A stretch of 64,000 nt of DNA from Niallia circulans (GTDB lineage: Bacteria; Bacillota; Bacilli; Bacillales; Cytobacillaceae), in assembly GCF_007273535.1 (NCBI RefSeq), contig NZ_RIBP01000004.1, positions 2,332,001-2,396,000 on the forward strand, in the 5' to 3' direction. Below are positions 33,025-40,713 of the stretch, piece after piece. Each line of letters begins with the position of its first letter. Position 1 is the stretch's first letter. A model generated the notes under the pieces. That model did no database searches. It was not told the DNA's origin and saw only the letters and a program-made list of their open reading frames with translations. A program made the translations under genes and the position numbers.

Positions 33025-33086
33025 TTTTATAATGTAAGCGTTCTAAAATAAGTAATTGTCTGAATAAATAAATATTAAGAAAAAAT

Positions 33087-33115
33087 TTGCATGGATTTGC
33101 AAAAGTGTTTATAGT
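33087..33115 (+). promoter_or_regulatory. Sigma-A promoter of the bkd operon
   Basis: TTGCAT (33087-33092), 17-nt spacer, TATAGT (33110-33115). No GG-N10-GC (-24/-12) element was found in the 150 bases before bkdR. The dyad TTTGCA-N6-TGCAAA (33086-33103) overlaps the -35 and the spacer. Confidence 0.7.
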
Positions 33116-33154
33116 ATAGATATGAAATAAATTGCACGGTAGAAAATATGATGA

Positions 33155-33175
33155 TGCAAAAAGTGAGGTTTTGCA
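33155..33175 (+). promoter_or_regulatory. Dyad enclosing the bkdR ribosome binding site
   Basis: TGCAAAA and TTTTGCA are perfect complements separated by AGTGAGG, which includes the Shine-Dalgarno; the right arm abuts the ATG at 33176. The arms repeat the TTTGCA/TGCAAA motif at the promoter, which suggests a DNA operator, but an RNA hairpin presenting the ribosome binding site in its loop is equally possible. Confidence 0.5.
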
Positions 33176-34813
33176 ATGGATCTGTCTTATCAATCAATAG
33201 AGCAATCCATCTTTCAGGAATTAAAAGAAGCTGTCATCCTGATTGATAAACACGGTAAAATCGTTTGCTATAACCAACAGGCTAAAGTTGTTGCTCAAAG
33301 CCAGCACAACCGGGAATTATCGATGCATGCACATATTCTTGACGTATTTCCAAAAAGTGAACTGATGAGAGTTCTGCAGACAAAAAAGGCGGAAATAAGA
33401 AAAATATTTCGTTTAAGTGACAAGCTGTCTGTTCACGTATCCCGTTTTCCCCTTTTAGATAAAGGTGGAGAACTGCTCGGCGCAGCAGCTATCATACAAC
33501 AGGACGGAGCTTCTGCAGAAAACAACTGGCAGATTGATGAATACATACAAGAAGGAATGCAGACAGTTCTGCAACATACATCACAGGCTTTTGTAATTTT
33601 GAATGAACAAGGATTTACTATCTTGCAAAATCCTGCACACGAGAATTTTTTGCTCACGCTGCAAAAAGACAGCGGAGCAGAAGCTGTTTGGAAACAGAAG
33701 CTAGAAGAGGTTTGTAAGAAGACATTGCAAACAAGACGGATGGTCGAAGAGAAGATAAGGGGCAAATCAATTGAAGGCAGTATTAAATGTCTTCCTAACT
33801 TGATAGATGGCGTGCTAAGGGGCTGTATTCTGTTCATTGACCATAATGTGGAGCAAGCAGAGCTCAGGAAAAAACTAGAGCAATCAAGAAGAATAATTCG
33901 CGCTTTGGAAACGCAGAGCAGATTCAAGGATTTTACAATAAATTCTCCGAGAATGAAAATGGCGGTCCAGCAAGCGAAAATTGCTGCAGACATGGATTAT
34001 CCCGTTTTTTTGAGAGGGGCTGCAGGAACAGGCAAGAAGATGCTTGCTAATGCTATCCATAATGACGGAAAAAGAAAATATCAAGCATTTACTGCTGTTG
34101 ATTGTTTGAAGGATGAGCAAAAGCTTGCAGACTATTTGGGCAGGATGAGTAGCAAGGATATTTCCAGTCATCCGCAAGGAACCGTCTATTTTAAAAATAT
34201 TACAGCTTTATCTTTGACCAAGCAAATGCAGCTGCATCAAATTGTTCTTAACAGTCAGGAAAATGCGGCTGTCTACCGTTTGATTGTTTCTTCTGATGTA
34301 AATGTAGAAACAGCTATGCTAGATGGAGCCTTTCAAAAAGAGCTTTATTATGACCTGCTGCAAACAAGCATCCATATGCCAGCATTAAAAGAAAGAAAAG
34401 AAGACATCGCTCCACTTGTTAAAGAGTGGATTCAGATTGGCAATGAGGAATACGGAAGCTGTATAACATCGATTGACCCAGCAGCAATGGAAGTGCTGCA
34501 AAATTTTCCATACAATAATAATTTTAAGGAATTGCGGGCAAGTTTAGAGCATTCACTAGCAAAATTAGATAGAGGGATTACTACTTTAAGTGAAAGTCAT
34601 CTTGCTTTTTTCGCAAATGCCAAGAACAGCCATGCAGAAAGCAATCCTGAGATTGGGGATAAGCCTCTTTCTGAACTGGTCGAAGAATATGAAAAGGTCA
34701 TTATACAAAAAACAATGGCTGAGCTTGATGGAAACAAGACGCTTACCGCAAAAAAATTAGGTTTATCCGTTCGGAATTTATATTATAAATTGGAAAAATA
34801 TCAATTAAACTAG
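33176..34813 (+). CDS. bkdR: BkdR-like regulator with degenerate sigma-54 AAA+ domain
   Basis: 545 residues (BkdR of B. subtilis is 692). Two PAS-like sensor regions (about 8-115 and 125-220), an AAA+ domain (about 255-475) and a C-terminal Fis-type HTH (NKTLTAKKLGLSVRNLYYKLEKYQLN region). Walker A GAAGTGKK is kept. The ELFG...GAFTGA segment that contacts sigma-54 is missing, Walker B reads GTVYFKNI instead of GTLFLDEI, and the arginine-finger region is FQKELYYDLL instead of FREDLYYRL. It probably cannot activate sigma-54 promoters and may act as a sigma-A repressor or activator, like TyrR. It heads the bkd operon; buk follows after about 30 bases. Confidence 0.88.
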   Translation: MDLSYQSIEQSIFQELKEAVILIDKHGKIVCYNQQAKVVAQSQHNRELSMHAHILDVFPKSELMRVLQTKKAEIRKIFRLSDKLSVHVSRFPLLDKGGELLGAAAIIQQDGASAENNWQIDEYIQEGMQTVLQHTSQAFVILNEQGFTILQNPAHENFLLTLQKDSGAEAVWKQKLEEVCKKTLQTRRMVEEKIRGKSIEGSIKCLPNLIDGVLRGCILFIDHNVEQAELRKKLEQSRRIIRALETQSRFKDFTINSPRMKMAVQQAKIAADMDYPVFLRGAAGTGKKMLANAIHNDGKRKYQAFTAVDCLKDEQKLADYLGRMSSKDISSHPQGTVYFKNITALSLTKQMQLHQIVLNSQENAAVYRLIVSSDVNVETAMLDGAFQKELYYDLLQTSIHMPALKERKEDIAPLVKEWIQIGNEEYGSCITSIDPAAMEVLQNFPYNNNFKELRASLEHSLAKLDRGITTLSESHLAFFANAKNSHAESNPEIGDKPLSELVEEYEKVIIQKTMAELDGNKTLTAKKLGLSVRNLYYKLEKYQLN

Positions 34814-34843
34814 CTGCTTATAAACAAAGGAGGATTGTCAAAG

Positions 34844-35938
34844 ATGAAGAAAAAGCATCGCATATTAATCATAAATCCGAAAGCAGACCTAACGGCTATT
34901 GCATTATATGAGAATGAAGTACCCATCTTTGAACAATCTATCATACAGGAGGATACAAAAAGTTATCCTGCTGTCTCCCTTCAAGCACCAGCTCGGACCA
35001 AGAAAATTCTTGATTTTCTTTTGTCAGAAGGCATTAACCTTTCGAAAATTAATGCTGTTGCCGGCAGAGGCGGGCTGTTAAAGCCAATCAAAGGCGGTAC
35101 ATACATGGTTAACGACGAGATGCTAGAAGATTTGAAAGCTGGTGAAAGAGGAGAGCATGCCTCCAATTTGGGAGGAATTATTGCTGCAGAGATTGCTGGT
35201 GGATTGAATATCCCGGCATTCATTGTAGATCCTGTTGTCGTTGATGAGCTAGATGATGTTGCAAGGATATCAGGTTATCCGCTCATCTCAAGAAAAAGTG
35301 TATTTCATGCACTGAATCATAAAGCGTGCGGAAGAAGAGCTGCCATGGAGCTCGGCAAGCGCTATGAGGACTGTCATTTTATTGTGGCGCATCTTGGCGA
35401 TGGTATAACGATAGGAGCACATAAGCAAGGCAAGGTTATTGACGTGAATAATGGATTAAATGGAGAAGGGCCTTTCAGTCCTGAAAGAGCAGGCAGTCTC
35501 CCACACGGAGATTTGATTGACCTTTGTTATTCAGGTAAATACAGCTACAAGGAAATGAAAGAGCAATTGCTGTACCATGCAGGGATTTCAGGCTATTTAA
35601 ATAAGAAGGATCTCAGCCAATTAGAGGAAGGCATGAAGGGTGGGAGCGAGCAGGATGAACTCGTTTTCCGTGCATTAGCGTATCAAGTAGCGAAGGAGAT
35701 CGGGAGTGCGAGCACAGTCCTGTCAGGTCGAATTGACGCGATAATTTTAACTGGGGTGATGGCATACAGCCATTTACTCGTTGAGGAAGTTGTCAAAAGA
35801 ATAAATTGGATTGCAGATGTGTTTACATATCCAGGTGAAAATGACATGCAATCACTTGCGAACGGCTGTTTACGTGTGCTTCGCGGTGAAGAGCAAGCAA
35901 AAGAATATACACATAAAGTTGGAGTAACAGGAGAGTGA
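34844..35938 (+). CDS. buk: Butyrate kinase
   Basis: About 364 residues of the acetate/butyrate kinase (ASKHA) family: RILIINPKADLTAIALYENE near the N-terminus, VAGRGGLLKPIKGGTY, HLGDGITIGAHKQGKVIDVNN-type phosphate-binding region and ILTGVMAYSH. It makes ATP from branched acyl phosphates derived from branched-chain amino acids. The ATG at 34844 is 10 nt after AAAGGAGG; a TTG nine bases earlier is too close. The usual partner gene ptb (phosphotransbutyrylase) is not in this operon. The lpdV frame opens before the buk stop. Confidence 0.94.
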   Translation: MKKKHRILIINPKADLTAIALYENEVPIFEQSIIQEDTKSYPAVSLQAPARTKKILDFLLSEGINLSKINAVAGRGGLLKPIKGGTYMVNDEMLEDLKAGERGEHASNLGGIIAAEIAGGLNIPAFIVDPVVVDELDDVARISGYPLISRKSVFHALNHKACGRRAAMELGKRYEDCHFIVAHLGDGITIGAHKQGKVIDVNNGLNGEGPFSPERAGSLPHGDLIDLCYSGKYSYKEMKEQLLYHAGISGYLNKKDLSQLEEGMKGGSEQDELVFRALAYQVAKEIGSASTVLSGRIDAIILTGVMAYSHLLVEEVVKRINWIADVFTYPGENDMQSLANGCLRVLRGEEQAKEYTHKVGVTGE

Positions 35939-35943
35939 ATGAT

Positions 35944-37365
35944 ATGGCTAATGAATATGATTTAGTTATTTTAGGAGGAGGTACTGGCGGCTATGTTGCC
36001 GCAATTCGCGCCTCTCAATTAGGTCTTAAAACAGCCATCGTCGAAAAAGGCAAGCTTGGCGGAACATGCCTGCATAATGGCTGTATCCCAAGCAAAGCAT
36101 TATTGAGAAGTGCAGAAGTTTATGCCACTACAAAAAAAGCAGAGGACTTTGGTGTACTTACTAGCGATGTGAGTCTTGACTTTGGAAAAGTCCAAGCGAG
36201 AAAGGCTGGGATTGTCCAAAAGCTTCATAGTGGTGTGCAATATTTAATGAAAAAAGGCAAAATAGACGTTTATGAAGGAAATGGAAGAATCCTTGGTCCT
36301 TCCATCTTCTCACCAATACCAGGAACCATCTCGGTGGAAATGAATAATGGAGAAGAAAATGAAATGCTGCTTCCGAAAAACGTCATTGTTTCTACTGGTT
36401 CAAGACCAAATACATTGCCAGGACTAGATATTGATGGTAAGTATGTTCTCAGCTCTGAGGAAGCATTGAAAATGGAGGAGCTACCTAAATCAATTCTTAT
36501 CGTCGGCGGCGGTGTTATTGGAGTGGAATGGGCTTCTATGCTTGCTGATTTTGATGTCGATGTTACGGTGATTGAATACAGTAACACAATTATTCCGACA
36601 GAAGATAAAGAAATTAGCTTAGAGCTGAAAAAACAGCTTGAAAAGAAGGGTGTTAAGGTCGTCACAGGTGCTAAAGTACTGCCTGAGACAGTGGAGAAAA
36701 AAGAGCAAGTTTCCATCCAAGCCGAATTAAAGGGCGAAAAGGTATTTTTTGCTGCTGAAAAGCTGCTTGTGTCGGTTGGAAGAATTGGCAATGTAGAAGG
36801 CATTGGGTTAGAGAATACAGATATTATTGTGAACAATAATAAAATAGAAGTAAATGACCATTTCCAAACAAAGGAATCACATATTTACGCGATTGGAGAT
36901 GTAATCGGTGGTCTGCAGCTTGCCCATGTTGCTTCTCACGAAGGGATGAAGGCTGTTGAGCATATTGCAGGAATGACGCCTGAGCGTCTCGATTACCAAA
37001 AAATCGCCAAATGTATTTATACACATCCTGAAGTAGCAAGCATTGGCTATTCGGAAGAAGAGGCTATTGCAAAGGGCTTTGAGGTGAAAAAAGGGAAGTT
37101 CTCCTTCCAAGCAATCGGAAAGGCGTTAGTATATGGCGAACAAGAAGGCTTTGTCAAAATAATCGCAGACCGTCAAACAGATGACATATTAGGTGTTCAT
37201 ATTATTGGTCCACATGCGACAGATATGATTTCAGAAGCGGCACTAGCGACGGTGCTTGACGCGGCTCCGTGGGAAATTGGAGCAACCATACATCCTCACC
37301 CGACATTGTCGGAAGCAATCGGAGAGGCTGCGCTTGCAGTCGATGGAAAGGAGATACACGGATGA
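35944..37365 (+). CDS. lpdV: Dihydrolipoyl dehydrogenase (E3) of the branched-chain complex
   Basis: 473 residues. FAD-binding LVILGGGTGGYVAAIRASQLG, redox-active disulfide GGTCLHNGCIPSK (two Cys), NAD-binding ILIVGGGVIGVEWASMLADF, and the C-terminal active-site HPHPTLSEAIGEA. It re-oxidises dihydrolipoyl-E2 and reduces NAD+. The ATG at 35944 is preceded by AGGAGAG; the start follows the buk stop by 5 bases. Confidence 0.96.
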   Translation: MANEYDLVILGGGTGGYVAAIRASQLGLKTAIVEKGKLGGTCLHNGCIPSKALLRSAEVYATTKKAEDFGVLTSDVSLDFGKVQARKAGIVQKLHSGVQYLMKKGKIDVYEGNGRILGPSIFSPIPGTISVEMNNGEENEMLLPKNVIVSTGSRPNTLPGLDIDGKYVLSSEEALKMEELPKSILIVGGGVIGVEWASMLADFDVDVTVIEYSNTIIPTEDKEISLELKKQLEKKGVKVVTGAKVLPETVEKKEQVSIQAELKGEKVFFAAEKLLVSVGRIGNVEGIGLENTDIIVNNNKIEVNDHFQTKESHIYAIGDVIGGLQLAHVASHEGMKAVEHIAGMTPERLDYQKIAKCIYTHPEVASIGYSEEEAIAKGFEVKKGKFSFQAIGKALVYGEQEGFVKIIADRQTDDILGVHIIGPHATDMISEAALATVLDAAPWEIGATIHPHPTLSEAIGEAALAVDGKEIHG

Positions 37366-37418: not shown

Positions 37419-38411
37419 ATGGTAGAAAAACGCCATTTACAGGCAGGATTAACAGATGAGCAAGTACTTGAAATGTATAGATATATGCTTTTGGCACGCC
37501 GTATTGATGAAAGAATGTGGCTGTTAAATCGTTCAGGTAAAATTCCATTCGTTGTTTCATGCCAAGGGCAAGAAGCAGCTCAGGTAGGTACAGCATTTGC
37601 TTTTGACAGGGCGAAGGATTATTCACTGCCGTATTATCGTGATTTAGGGGTTGTGCTTGCATTCGGACAAACACCAAAGGAAATTATGCTTCAAGGGTTT
37701 GCTAAGGCAGAGGATCCGAACTCAGGCGGCAGACAAATGCCAGGACATTTCGGGCAAAAGAAAAACCGGATCGTAACTGGTTCTTCACCTGTAACGACAC
37801 AGGTTCCGCATGCTGTCGGAATTGCATTGGCAGGAAAAATCGAGAAAAAAGACTTTGTTACATATGTAAGCTTTGGAGAAGGATCTTCCAATCAGGGTGA
37901 TTTCCATGAAGGAGCCAATTTTGCTGGAGTGCATAAACTTCCTGTCATTTTCGTTTGCGAAAATAATAAATATGCTATTTCTGTTCCAATTGAAAAGCAA
38001 TTGGCTTGTGAAAATGTTTCTGATAGAGCAATCGGCTACGGCATGCCTGGTTATACAGTCGATGGTAATGATCCAATCGAAGTATACCGTGTCACAAAAG
38101 AAGCAGTTGACAGAGCAAGAAGAGGCGAAGGACCAACTTTAATTGAGACAGTTTCATACCGCTTAACGCCTCACTCTTCTGACGATGATGATAGAGCATA
38201 TAGAGGCCGTGAAGAAGTGGCAGAAGCAAAAGCGAAGGACCCAGTGATTACATTCAAGCAATACTTATTAGACACAGGTGTTCTGACAGAAGATATGGAT
38301 AAAGAGCTTAATGCTGACATGATGCAAATCATTGATGATGCAACAGAATACGCAGAAAAAGCTCCATATGCAAAACCTGAAGATGCGATGAATTATGTGT
38401 ACGGGAATTAA
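37419..38411 (+). CDS. bkdAA: Branched-chain 2-oxoacid dehydrogenase E1 alpha
   Basis: 330 residues, the same length as in B. subtilis. Thiamine-diphosphate motif SFGEGSSNQGDFHEGANFAG...ENNKYAIS, the E1-alpha hallmark GRQMPGHFG, and YRLTPHSSDDDDRAYRG. With BkdAB it decarboxylates the 2-oxoacids of Leu, Ile and Val. The ATG at 37419 has GGAGG; a longer in-frame reading runs into lpdV and is rejected. Confidence 0.96.
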   Translation: MVEKRHLQAGLTDEQVLEMYRYMLLARRIDERMWLLNRSGKIPFVVSCQGQEAAQVGTAFAFDRAKDYSLPYYRDLGVVLAFGQTPKEIMLQGFAKAEDPNSGGRQMPGHFGQKKNRIVTGSSPVTTQVPHAVGIALAGKIEKKDFVTYVSFGEGSSNQGDFHEGANFAGVHKLPVIFVCENNKYAISVPIEKQLACENVSDRAIGYGMPGYTVDGNDPIEVYRVTKEAVDRARRGEGPTLIETVSYRLTPHSSDDDDRAYRGREEVAEAKAKDPVITFKQYLLDTGVLTEDMDKELNADMMQIIDDATEYAEKAPYAKPEDAMNYVYGN

Positions 38412-38425
38412 GGGGGAAAGAAATA

Positions 38426-39409
38426 ATGGCAGTTATTTCATATATTGATGCAGTTACAATGGCCATCAGAGAAGAGATGGAAAGAGATGATAAGGTATTT
38501 ATTTTAGGTGAGGATGTTGGCGTTAAAGGCGGCGTATTTAAGGCAACAACCGGATTATATGAACAGTTCGGTGAAGCAAGAGTTATTGATGCACCACTTG
38601 CAGAATCTGCGATTGCAGGTGTCGGCATCGGTGCAGCAATGTACGGAATGAAGCCTATTGCTGAGATGCAATTTGCTGATTTCATTATGCCGGCAGTTAA
38701 CCAAATAGTCTCAGAGGCGGCGAAAATCCGTTATCGTTCTAACAATGACTGGACTTGTCCAATTGTTATTCGTGCACCATACGGCGGAGGCATCCATGGC
38801 GCTCTTTATCATTCCCAATCAGTAGAAGCAATGTTTGCGAACACACCAGGATTGAAAATTGTTATGCCTTCTACACCTTATGATGTGAAGGGGTTATTAA
38901 AAGCAGCTGTCCGCGATCCTGATCCTGTATTGTTCTTTGAACATAAACGTGCCTATCGTTTAATTAAAGGTGAAGTACCGGATGATGATTATGTGCTGCC
39001 AATCGGCAAGGCAGATGTAAAGCGTGAAGGCGAGGATATCACCGTCATTACATACGGATTGTGCGTCCATTTCGCTCTACAGGCAGCAGAAAAGCTTGCT
39101 GAAGACGGGATTTCTGCACATGTATTGGATTTACGCACTGTTTATCCGCTTGATCAAGAAGCAATTATTGAGGCTGCTTCAAAAACAGGTAAAGTACTCC
39201 TGATTACAGAGGACAACAAAGAAGGAAGTATCATCAGTGAAGTTGCAGCGATTATTGCTGAAAATTGCCTATTTGACTTAGATGCGCCGATTATGAGACT
39301 TGCAGGTCCAGATGTTCCAGCAATGCCTTATGCACCGACAATGGAAAAACACTTCATTATCAGCCCAGAAAAAGTCGAAGCTGCAATGCGCAAGCTGGCA
39401 GAATTTTAA
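38426..39409 (+). CDS. bkdAB: Branched-chain 2-oxoacid dehydrogenase E1 beta
   Basis: 327 residues, the normal length. Transketolase-like pyrimidine domain with FILGEDVGVKGGVFKATTGL, DAPLAESAIAGVGIGAAMYG, and RAPYGGGIHGALYHSQSVEA; C-terminal transketolase domain with VLDLRTVYPLDQEAI and GPDVPAMPYAPTMEK. It forms the alpha2beta2 E1 component with BkdAA. 14 bases separate it from bkdAA. Confidence 0.97.
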   Translation: MAVISYIDAVTMAIREEMERDDKVFILGEDVGVKGGVFKATTGLYEQFGEARVIDAPLAESAIAGVGIGAAMYGMKPIAEMQFADFIMPAVNQIVSEAAKIRYRSNNDWTCPIVIRAPYGGGIHGALYHSQSVEAMFANTPGLKIVMPSTPYDVKGLLKAAVRDPDPVLFFEHKRAYRLIKGEVPDDDYVLPIGKADVKREGEDITVITYGLCVHFALQAAEKLAEDGISAHVLDLRTVYPLDQEAIIEAASKTGKVLLITEDNKEGSIISEVAAIIAENCLFDLDAPIMRLAGPDVPAMPYAPTMEKHFIISPEKVEAAMRKLAEF

Positions 39410-39435: not shown

Positions 39436-40713
39436 ATGTCCAGTGAAAAAATAACAATGCCAAAGCTTGGCGAAAGTGTAACAGAAGGAACAATCAGCAA
39501 ATGGCTGGTTTCTGTCGGTGACACTGTCAAGAAGTATGAACCATTGGCTGAGGTTATGACCGATAAAGTAAATGCAGAAATACCATCATCCTTTACAGGG
39601 AGTGTAAAGGAGCTGATTGCAGGTGAAGGAGATACACTACAGGTTGGTGAAGTCATCTGTATCCTTGATGTCGAAGGAGAAGAGGAAGTAACAGTAGTGA
39701 CCCCAAGCCAGCAAAAGGATGAGAGCAGCAAGGAAGAGAAATCTGTTTCTAATAAAGCTAGATATTCTCCAGCTGTGCTCCGTCTGTCACAAGAAGCGGG
39801 TCTTGATCTGAGCCAGATAAAAGGCACAGGAATGGGCGGGAGAATTACAAGGAAGGACGTCCAAGCTGCTATTAGCGGCGGACAGAAGCCAAAGCAAGAT
39901 TTGCAGGTACCTACAAAAGCACCAGTCGTGCAAATGGAAGTACAATCAGAGCCTGTCGTAACACAAGCACCTACCCAGCAACAGGAGCCAGTCGTGCAAA
40001 TACAAACAGCTCCTGGTGATGTGGAGATTCCTGTGACTGGAATCCGCAAGGCTATTGCTGCCAATATGAAAAAGAGCAAGCATGATATACCGCATGCATG
40101 GACGATGATTGAAGTGGATGCAACGAAACTGGTGAATTACCGCAATGAAGTGAAGGATTCCTTCAAAAAGGACGAAGGCTATAATCTTACATATTTTGCG
40201 TTCTTTGTTAAGGCGGTTGCCCAAACACTGAAGGAATTTCCGGAAATCAACTCAACATGGGCTGGTGATAAAATTATCCGCAAAAAGGATATTAATATCT
40301 CCATCGCTGTTGCGACAGAAGATGCTTTATACGTACCAGTGATTAAAAACGCAGATGAAAAGTCACTAAAAGGAATTGCCAGAGAAATTACAGAGCTTGC
40401 TGCTAAAGCAAGAAAAGGTACATTGCAGCTTCACGAAATGGAAGGCGGTACCTTTACGGTCAATAATACTGGTTCATTCGGTTCTATTCAGTCAATGGGG
40501 ATTATCAATCATCCGCAAGCAGCCATTTTACAAGTAGAATCAATTGTGAAAAGACCTGTTATTAAGGACGGCATGATTGCGATTAGTGATATGGTGAATT
40601 TATGCATGTCACTTGATCACCGTGTGCTTGACGGGTTAGTGTGCGGAAGATTTATGCAGCGTTTGAAGGAAAGACTCGAAAACACTACAAAAGAATCAAC
40701 GCCAATCTATTAA
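39436..40713 (+). CDS. bkdB: Branched-chain 2-oxoacid dehydrogenase E2 (lipoyl acyltransferase)
   Basis: 425 residues. N-terminal lipoyl domain with the lipoylated Lys in MTDKVNAEIPS (about residue 44), a peripheral-subunit-binding domain (SPAVLRLSQEAGLDLSQIKGTGMGG.. region), a Gln/Pro/Val-rich linker with a repeated VVQ(M/I)..P unit (about 155-190), and the catalytic domain with NHPQAAILQVESI and the active-site His in SLDHRVLDG. It transfers branched acyl groups to CoA. Last gene of the bkd cluster. Confidence 0.97.
   Translation: MSSEKITMPKLGESVTEGTISKWLVSVGDTVKKYEPLAEVMTDKVNAEIPSSFTGSVKELIAGEGDTLQVGEVICILDVEGEEEVTVVTPSQQKDESSKEEKSVSNKARYSPAVLRLSQEAGLDLSQIKGTGMGGRITRKDVQAAISGGQKPKQDLQVPTKAPVVQMEVQSEPVVTQAPTQQQEPVVQIQTAPGDVEIPVTGIRKAIAANMKKSKHDIPHAWTMIEVDATKLVNYRNEVKDSFKKDEGYNLTYFAFFVKAVAQTLKEFPEINSTWAGDKIIRKKDINISIAVATEDALYVPVIKNADEKSLKGIAREITELAAKARKGTLQLHEMEGGTFTVNNTGSFGSIQSMGIINHPQAAILQVESIVKRPVIKDGMIAISDMVNLCMSLDHRVLDGLVCGRFMQRLKERLENTTKESTPIY

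Follow-up and report, generated by a model that had tools for sequence, protein, structure and literature searches.

A Niallia circulans BkdR without the sigma-54 loop is probably a promoter-proximal regulator, most likely a repressor, of the bkd operon

The 64,000-nucleotide stretch of Niallia circulans DNA considered here (contig NZ_RIBP01000004.1, positions 2,332,001 to 2,396,000 of the forward strand; below, the window) carries bkdR, which codes for a degenerate homologue of the enhancer-binding proteins (EBPs) that activate sigma-54 promoters, in front of the bkd genes. It appears near certain from the sequence data that this BkdR is independent of sigma-54, and it is probable that a former sigma-54 EBP activator now regulates a sigma-A-type operon from a promoter-proximal position, most likely as its repressor. 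Sigma-54 promoters need a dedicated activator, and therefore the loss of sigma-54 should silence the operons it served; the genomes described below suggest that such a loss can be survived when the site of the activator's self-repression is reused to control the whole operon. A preliminary description of the gene had proposed a sigma-54-independent role, perhaps similar to that of TyrR. The first part of this proposal is supported by the loss of the sigma-54 loop (L1, with its GAFS/TGA motif), by the absence of a sigma-54 gene and by the absence of a -24/-12 promoter before the bkd genes. The second part stands as an analogy only, with the NCBIfam TyrR equivalog scoring 89.8 bits, far under its cut-off of 576.

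The 545-amino-acid BkdR matches the Pfam profiles Sigma54_activ_2 (64.8 bits), Sigma54_activat (N-terminal part only), AAA_lid_14 and HTH_8, and its AAA+ fold, Fis-type helix-turn-helix (HTH) and PAS-like domains align at full length with BkdR orthologues. According to the preliminary description, Walker A was kept, whereas the GAFTGA loop, the Walker B DE and the arginine finger were lost, and an alignment of 68 BkdRs bears this out. The GAFS/TGA columns are filled by 'KD' and gaps, and GAFTGA is absent anywhere along the protein; loop-intact BkdRs of sigma-54-bearing genomes read GAFSGA here, and GAFTGA in one. The FLDEIG of sigma-54-bearing relatives is changed to YFKNIT, their FREDLYYRL corresponds to a degenerate FQKELYYDLL (residues 386-395), and sensor II is changed from WPGNVREL to YNNNFKEL. 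An N-terminal domain of about 110-120 residues, present in the sigma-54 relatives, is absent from the Niallia BkdRs; in one such relative (L085), residues 1-110 resemble by eye the start of a nucleotide-binding (Rossmann-type) fold, with no Pfam match there. The Fis-type HTH, also described as kept, is the best conserved part of the protein. Two PAS-like domains correspond to the PAS sensors proposed earlier: a Pfam profile search gave no PAS match, the first domain matches the cytoplasmic PAS of CitA among PDB sequences (E 6.9e-6 and 9.4e-6), and the second aligns with relatives whose PAS domains are called by Pfam. Among the features expected of a functional bacterial EBP, only Walker A is found here, with GAFS/TGA, the Walker B DE, the arginine finger, a genomic sigma-54 and a -24/-12 promoter all missing. 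An EBP-type AAA+ domain and HTH without GAFTGA is the combination expected of a GAFTGA-less EBP-derived regulator.

The closest named relative of the protein is that of Niallia taxi (94% identity). The BkdRs of two further genomes, G176 and G177, are 94 and 93% identical to the window BkdR and carry the same motifs, which excludes a sequencing error as the source of the motif loss. The ratios of nonsynonymous to synonymous substitution rates (dN/dS) against these two are 0.090 and 0.098, and across the seven BkdR pairs computed the whole-protein values are 0.09-0.17. Because the motifs are shared and dN/dS is low, the motif loss is not attributable to error and probably not to decay. A functionless relic in the course of decay would account for the loss of Walker B, the arginine finger, sensor II and the N-terminal domain and for the poorly conserved lid (9/81 columns invariant). 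This is very improbable, however, since dN/dS is low, 35 of the 48 HTH columns are invariant among 11 Niallia BkdRs, the frame is open in 13/13 Niallia and in loop-less genomes of five other families, and the putative operator described below is kept in all 26 loop-less loci scanned.

Whether sigL is kept, a question raised at the outset for close relatives, is answered by the genomes. The window genome (5.46 Mb, 4 contigs, 99.15% complete) gives no match to the sigma-54 profile PF04552, which matches the B. subtilis and E. coli controls, and, judged by its sequence, lacks sigma-54. Sigma-54 is present in 179/193 genomes of the GTDB family and in only 2 of the 13 Niallia genomes (Niallia being counted here as GTDB genus g1). 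Outside Niallia, the only family members without it are G028, G162 and G183 (94, 85 and 80% complete), and these look like assembly gaps because their BkdRs keep GAFSGA and the promoter. In 10/10 sigma-54-bearing family genomes examined rpoN directly precedes cggR and gap, with clpP on its other side in 9. The cggR gene is present in all 13 Niallia genomes, and a tblastn search with a native RpoN against these loci (1.5 kb on each side) returned nothing at E<=10; gene order, established at cggR in 6 of the 13, shows clpP adjoining cggR in 4 and other genes in 2. It might be supposed that the strain does have a sigma-54 which the assembly has missed, and that BkdR cooperates with it by some unusual mechanism, the window genome being 99.15% and not 100% complete. 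We give this almost no credence: 11/13 Niallia genomes lack sigma-54, none is seen at its usual site, and the window genome, unlike the three apparent assembly gaps, keeps neither GAFSGA nor the promoter.

In the two Niallia genomes with sigma-54, G172 and G168, the rpoN genes (L088-L090) are only 38% identical to a native RpoN, compared with 57-73% for nine other native RpoNs against the same reference, and lie away from the clpP-cggR site. Because they are divergent and at other sites, these genes look re-acquired, as if gained as a module with a nearby activator whose loop looks intact. The G172 gene lies about 18 kb from a 918-residue activator with GAFTGA, which is found among sugar genes (NCBIfam DagR, 517 bits, below the cut-off of 1400), and that of G168 about 4 kb from a 498-residue activator with GSFTGS. 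Despite these sigma-54 genes, BkdR is loop-less in both genomes.

The same loss was followed across the order in 397 genomes at least 95% complete, drawn from a larger group, 348 of them with and 49 without sigma-54. The search for BkdR, with an intact BkdR as query, covered 19 of the 48 other sigma-54-less genomes (29 lay outside it) together with G028, G162 and G183. Eleven of the 19 yielded a BkdR, loop-less in every case, and the other 8 gave none at E 1e-30. Among 27 control genomes with a sigma-54 match (weak in G473), 21 gave BkdR at E<=1e-110; G183 was included again in the control set and a second G209 match was dropped. The resulting 71 loci are 13 from Niallia, 23 others from the family (19 of the best-scoring loci and 4 further), 3 from incomplete assemblies, 11 from sigma-54-less genomes and 21 controls. 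Three of them (L154, L159 and L171) were read separately from the 68-protein alignment and added to the counts.

L1 is intact in 44/71 loci, 41 with sigma-54 and the 3 of incomplete assemblies. The other 27 have lost it: 22 lack sigma-54, and the rest are G172, G168, G473, G222 and G231 (the loop of G294, GELSGA, is counted as lost, its F being gone). All 13 Niallia BkdRs share the loss, which settles whether close relatives do, and outside the incomplete assemblies GAFS/TGA is lost in 22/22 sigma-54-less genomes. An intact GAFS/TGA in the BkdR of a seemingly sigma-54-less genome can accordingly serve as a sequence test for an assembly gap, all three such cases being incomplete assemblies. The 27 loop-less proteins retain the P-loop GxxGxGK in every case (the script that picked open reading frames, ORFs, required it, a condition that removed no BkdR locus), the Walker B DE in 12 and FREDL-Y/F-YRL in 3 (G210, G263 and G275). 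Across these proteins the loop is always lost, the catalytic motifs are lost in some and the P-loop never. Where the P-loop persists and the catalytic motifs do not, the effect of nucleotide binding alone in the EBP family could be tested in a natural setting.

The layout of the operon changes together with the protein. The order bkdR-buk-lpdV-bkdAA-bkdAB-bkdB is syntenic with that of sigma-54-bearing relatives, as expected of orthologues. In those relatives the gap after bkdR holds an activating site and a -24/-12 promoter, with ptb and bcd coming next in most cases: two ORFs of the corresponding sizes lie between bkdR and buk in 7/8 sigma-54 loci of the family (only one in L080), and those of L085 encode a phosphate butyryltransferase (over the cut-off) and a Glu/Leu/Phe/Val dehydrogenase. 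With at least 10 of 12 consensus letters and both GG and GC required, a -24/-12 promoter is found 3' of bkdR in 43/44 L1-intact and 0/27 loop-less loci (Fisher p 1e-18, not corrected for kinship); the only intact locus without it is that of G503 (L159/L195), which has sigma-54 and GAFSGA. The gap itself is 57-262 nucleotides (nt) long in L1-intact loci (median 131, n=43, the G006 gap running off the contig) and 1-58 nt in loop-less ones (median 20, n=27). The window holds 7 matches to -24/-12 with at most one mismatch, against 7.5 expected by chance. None lies before the bkd genes, and just one falls within them, in buk and on the opposite strand. In 11/13 Niallia genomes bkdR is followed by an ORF of buk size (357-371 residues), and in G170 and G173 by lpdV. 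In these two genomes (L078, L079) no buk follows bkdR, and BkdR keeps the Walker B DE and not the loop. The window genome has one gene of the PTA/PTB family, located elsewhere than in the bkd operon. In sigma-54-less genomes of other families, a ptb-like ORF lies directly 3' of bkdR in 10/11 and a buk-like ORF in G249 (named by eye). Because the bkdR-buk gap leaves no room for a promoter, it follows that the bkd genes would be controlled from the bkdR promoter, unless there is a promoter inside bkdR.

The predicted bkdR promoter is of sigma-A type, and a putative BkdR operator overlaps its inferred start site. In sigma-54 relatives a site ATGAAA/ATGCAA-N4-TTGCA is often found about 10 nt past the bkdR stop codon. 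A weight matrix was built from the best 80% of the downstream sites of 42 intact loci and run on the 150 nt upstream of bkdR, with 400 dinucleotide shuffles per locus (L021, L171 and L135, where no start was found, were left out). It finds the putative operator of the window at shuffle p=0.002. An upstream site is present at p<=0.05 in 40/42 intact and 26/26 loop-less loci, and at p<=0.01 in 37/42 and 21/26, respectively. In loop-less loci the site begins 1-11 nt 3' of the -10 hexamer chosen by script, and a BkdR-type site just 3' of a sigma-A-type -10 of bkdR is found in most sigma-54-using relatives as well. The downstream site is mostly gone from loop-less loci (median score -1.7, maximum 17.0, vs a median of 16.9 in intact ones).

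Other signals near this promoter were also considered. An inverted repeat, TGCAAAA-N7-TTTTGCA, surrounds the ribosome-binding site at 33155-33175; in G172 and G174 each of its arms has one extra base. An RNA hairpin around the bkdR start codon was rejected, folding being no better than in shuffles (z 0.68). No claim of a wider BkdR regulon is made: ATGAAA-N4-TTGCAY occurs 3 times in the genome (in the bkdR promoter, inside an ORF and in DNA where no ORF of 80 residues or more is called), compared with 2 times in a backward-read control.

A position at about +1 to +16 is typical of repressor sites. We infer repression by BkdR from the putative site at this position and from the precedent of SoxR, described at the end. 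The ancestral BkdR would already have bound the upstream site and so limited its own synthesis; once the sigma-54 promoter was lost, the operon would have been left under the control of this autoregulatory operator alone. By occupying about +1 to +16, BkdR would block RNA polymerase, and a ligand bound by the PAS domains, with a nucleotide in the kept P-loop, would set its affinity for DNA without ATP hydrolysis. The BkdR of B. subtilis responds to isoleucine and valine.

Several points weigh against this reading. The motif seed was picked by eye after both regions had been seen, so that the motif test was not blind, and the loci are related, so that the p-values are not independent. The operator is the only match of ATGMAANNNNTTKCAY in the window, but 22/100 shuffles also had at least one, and the window-wide match alone is not significant. 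Two of the 42 intact loci, G028 (p 0.855) and G220 (p 0.840), have no upstream site, and the six genomes of f40 have a weaker one (p 0.010-0.045). The site could serve only to tune the level of BkdR, a promoter inside bkdR is possible, and ligand might have strengthened DNA binding by the ancestral activator, which would mean co-repression and not induction.

Alternatively, BkdR may directly activate sigma-A RNA polymerase at the bkdR promoter. A protein without GAFTGA, NtrC of R. capsulatus, is reported to activate via sigma-70 (PMC10274813), and in the window genome and four relatives the inverted repeat TTTGCA-N6-TGCAAA, with possible second half-sites, overlaps the -35 hexamer. Direct activation is nevertheless unlikely, given that the conserved site lies 3' of the -10 hexamer and that the -35 repeat, kept in G176, G177, G172 and G174, is not found in the other Niallia upstream regions. 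Repression from the start-site operator is still the preferred reading.

The history of the loss was traced on a tree of lpdV, bkdAA, bkdAB and bkdB (51 genomes, 1556 columns). The loop-less groups and their support are Niallia (100), G275+G304 (100), G205+G249 (97), G263+G222 (100) and an f40 group (100; G294 joins at 52), in addition to G210. Fitch parsimony gives 5 changes and there are 6 all-lost clades; weak nodes (46-58) separate f19, f31, f40 and an intact f28 genome. The tree fits four to six separate losses of the loop, four being the minimum because weakly split groups were then taken as one event, with GTDB families as a guide. We lean slightly towards the view that sigma-54 loss has each of these four to six times in the order converted this one activator into a repressor, always along a fixed path. 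By this route, an EBP that represses its own sigma-A promoter would lose the -24/-12 promoter and the activating site, and the operon would fuse to bkdR; the L1 loop would decay first, Walker B and the arginine finger later, and the P-loop would stay as a nucleotide-binding switch.

The order of the steps may also have been the reverse. BkdR would first have been uncoupled, by a promoter switch and then loss of the loop, and sigma-54, left with fewer clients, would have been lost later. G503, which keeps sigma-54 and GAFSGA without the promoter and is sister to the loop-less f14 pair G205+G249 (support 89), suggests for this reason a possible living intermediate and that the promoter can go first; G222 and G231 have sigma-54 yet a loop-less BkdR. 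On the other hand, the two Niallia sigma-54 genes look like re-acquisitions, as noted above, and that of G231 (L205) is not beside clpP or cggR and is 42% identical to the native RpoN of the GTDB family, a weaker point because G231 belongs to another family. The reverse order is a tentative possibility, the lesser of the two, and is compatible with the same end state, so it does not exclude BkdR as a promoter-proximal repressor. Because the conversion happened several times and possible intermediates are still living, the order of steps is testable.

Other sigma-54 activators of these genomes were also read. The window genome has two more EBP homologues. One, L001 (contig C4), reads ASFTEE in the loop and EN in Walker B and neighbours a PutP-like symporter gene; the other, L002 (contig C3), is of PrpR_N type, has no loop, reads KN in Walker B and neighbours a dapA-family gene. 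In the other Niallia EBPs read (three matches in G168, G170 and G172 were left out) the loop is damaged except in L041 and L055, both in genomes with a divergent sigma-54 (G172 and G168); a further EBP of G168, L053, reads GMLAGV. In sigma-54-less genomes of other families (G294, G263 and G298), a second activator (L139, L140 and L141) also lacks GAFTGA and lies beside a gene of aldehyde-dehydrogenase type that looks like rocA by eye. If these activators are RocR, a conversion of this kind may extend to arginine use. Coordinates of the features in the window are collected in Table 1.

Table 1. Features of the bkdR locus, in positions of the window
Feature	Position	Strand	Basis
-35 inverted repeat TTTGCA-N6-TGCAAA, possible second half-sites	33086..33103	+	sequence
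-35-like hexamer TTGCAT, sigma-A-type, 17-nt spacer, predicted	33087..33092	+	sequence; same place in 13 Niallia upstream regions
-10-like hexamer TATAGT	33110..33115	+	sequence, comparison
Putative BkdR operator ATGAAATAAATTGCAC, spanning about +1 to +16 of the predicted start site	33122..33137	+	motif, matrix
bkdR, degenerate sigma-54-activator homologue, 545 residues, ATG start	33176..34813	+	ORF, family profiles, alignment with 67 other BkdRs
First PAS-like domain (residues 1-112)	33176..33511	+	PDB sequence match, CitA PAS, residues 4-106
Second PAS-like domain (residues 113-222)	33512..33841	+	alignment with relatives whose PAS Pfam calls
Walker A GAAGTGKK (residues 281-288), kept	34016..34039	+	alignment
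Site of deleted loop L1 with GAFSGA	34124..34177	+	alignment
Walker B remnant GTVYFKNI (residues 335-342), DE changed to KN	34178..34201	+	alignment
Arginine-finger region FQKELYYDL (both R of FREDLYYRL lost)	34331..34357	+	alignment
C-terminal region, Fis-type HTH (Pfam HTH_8, residues 502-542), best conserved part	34667..34810	+	Pfam; column conservation
bkdR-buk gap, 21 nt, no -24/-12 promoter	34814..34834	+	comparison with sigma-54 relatives
buk, butyrate kinase; ORF opens at TTG, ATG at 34844	34835..35938	+	TIGR02707
lpdV, dihydrolipoyl dehydrogenase	35935..37365	+	TIGR01350
bkdAA, E1 alpha; start provisional (open frame from 37269)	37419..38411	+	best NCBIfam match, under cut-off
bkdAB, E1 beta	38426..39409	+	NF006667 over cut-off
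bkdB, E2	39436..40713	+	best NCBIfam matches are acyltransferases, under cut-offs

In B. subtilis and B. thuringiensis (PMC4428206), BkdR is a sigma-54 activator encoded before the bkd genes, with two PAS domains and an AAA+ domain, and the bkd operon, which serves isoleucine and valine use, is controlled by sigma-54 and BkdR. The window BkdR resembles these proteins in its place before the bkd genes, its PAS-like domains and its AAA+ domain (the B. subtilis protein itself is outside our alignment). It differs from them in lacking GAFS/TGA, the Walker B DE, the arginine finger and the N-terminal domain, and the operon differs in lacking the -24/-12 promoter, ptb and bcd. GAFTGA-less EBPs as such are already known: those at sigma-70 promoters include TyrR and DhaR of E. 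coli, HupR and NtrC of R. capsulatus, VpsR of V. cholerae and a Caulobacter NtrC (PMC3162934 and PMC10274813). Like these, the window BkdR is an EBP descendant minus the sigma-54 loop. The hosts of TyrR, DhaR, HupR, NtrC and VpsR keep sigma-54, and our sigma-54 profile matches E. coli and a Caulobacter. With BkdR, unlike these cases, the loop disappears together with sigma-54 and the operon's -24/-12 promoter, and does so in several lineages. Francke et al. in 2011 (PMC3162934) noted EBPs whose GAFTGA is damaged in the sigma-54-less Fusobacterium nucleatum and Jannaschia sp.; in those a single residue is reported to be replaced, whereas BkdR has its loop deleted and its target operon rewired. 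The top-ranked literature matches, among which the original B. subtilis bkdR paper (PMC93617) was not covered, showed no GAFTGA-less BkdR, repeated conversion or operon rewiring, and the BkdR case, the repeated route and the rewiring of the operon, found in no paper searched, are apparently new. The nearest precedent for the proposed repression is SoxR of B. thuringiensis, an EBP which is reported to repress its own sigma-54-independent promoter through the site that it also uses as activator (PMC4941409). SoxR keeps its sigma-54 role, whereas the BkdR described here appears to be left with the putative self-repression site only.
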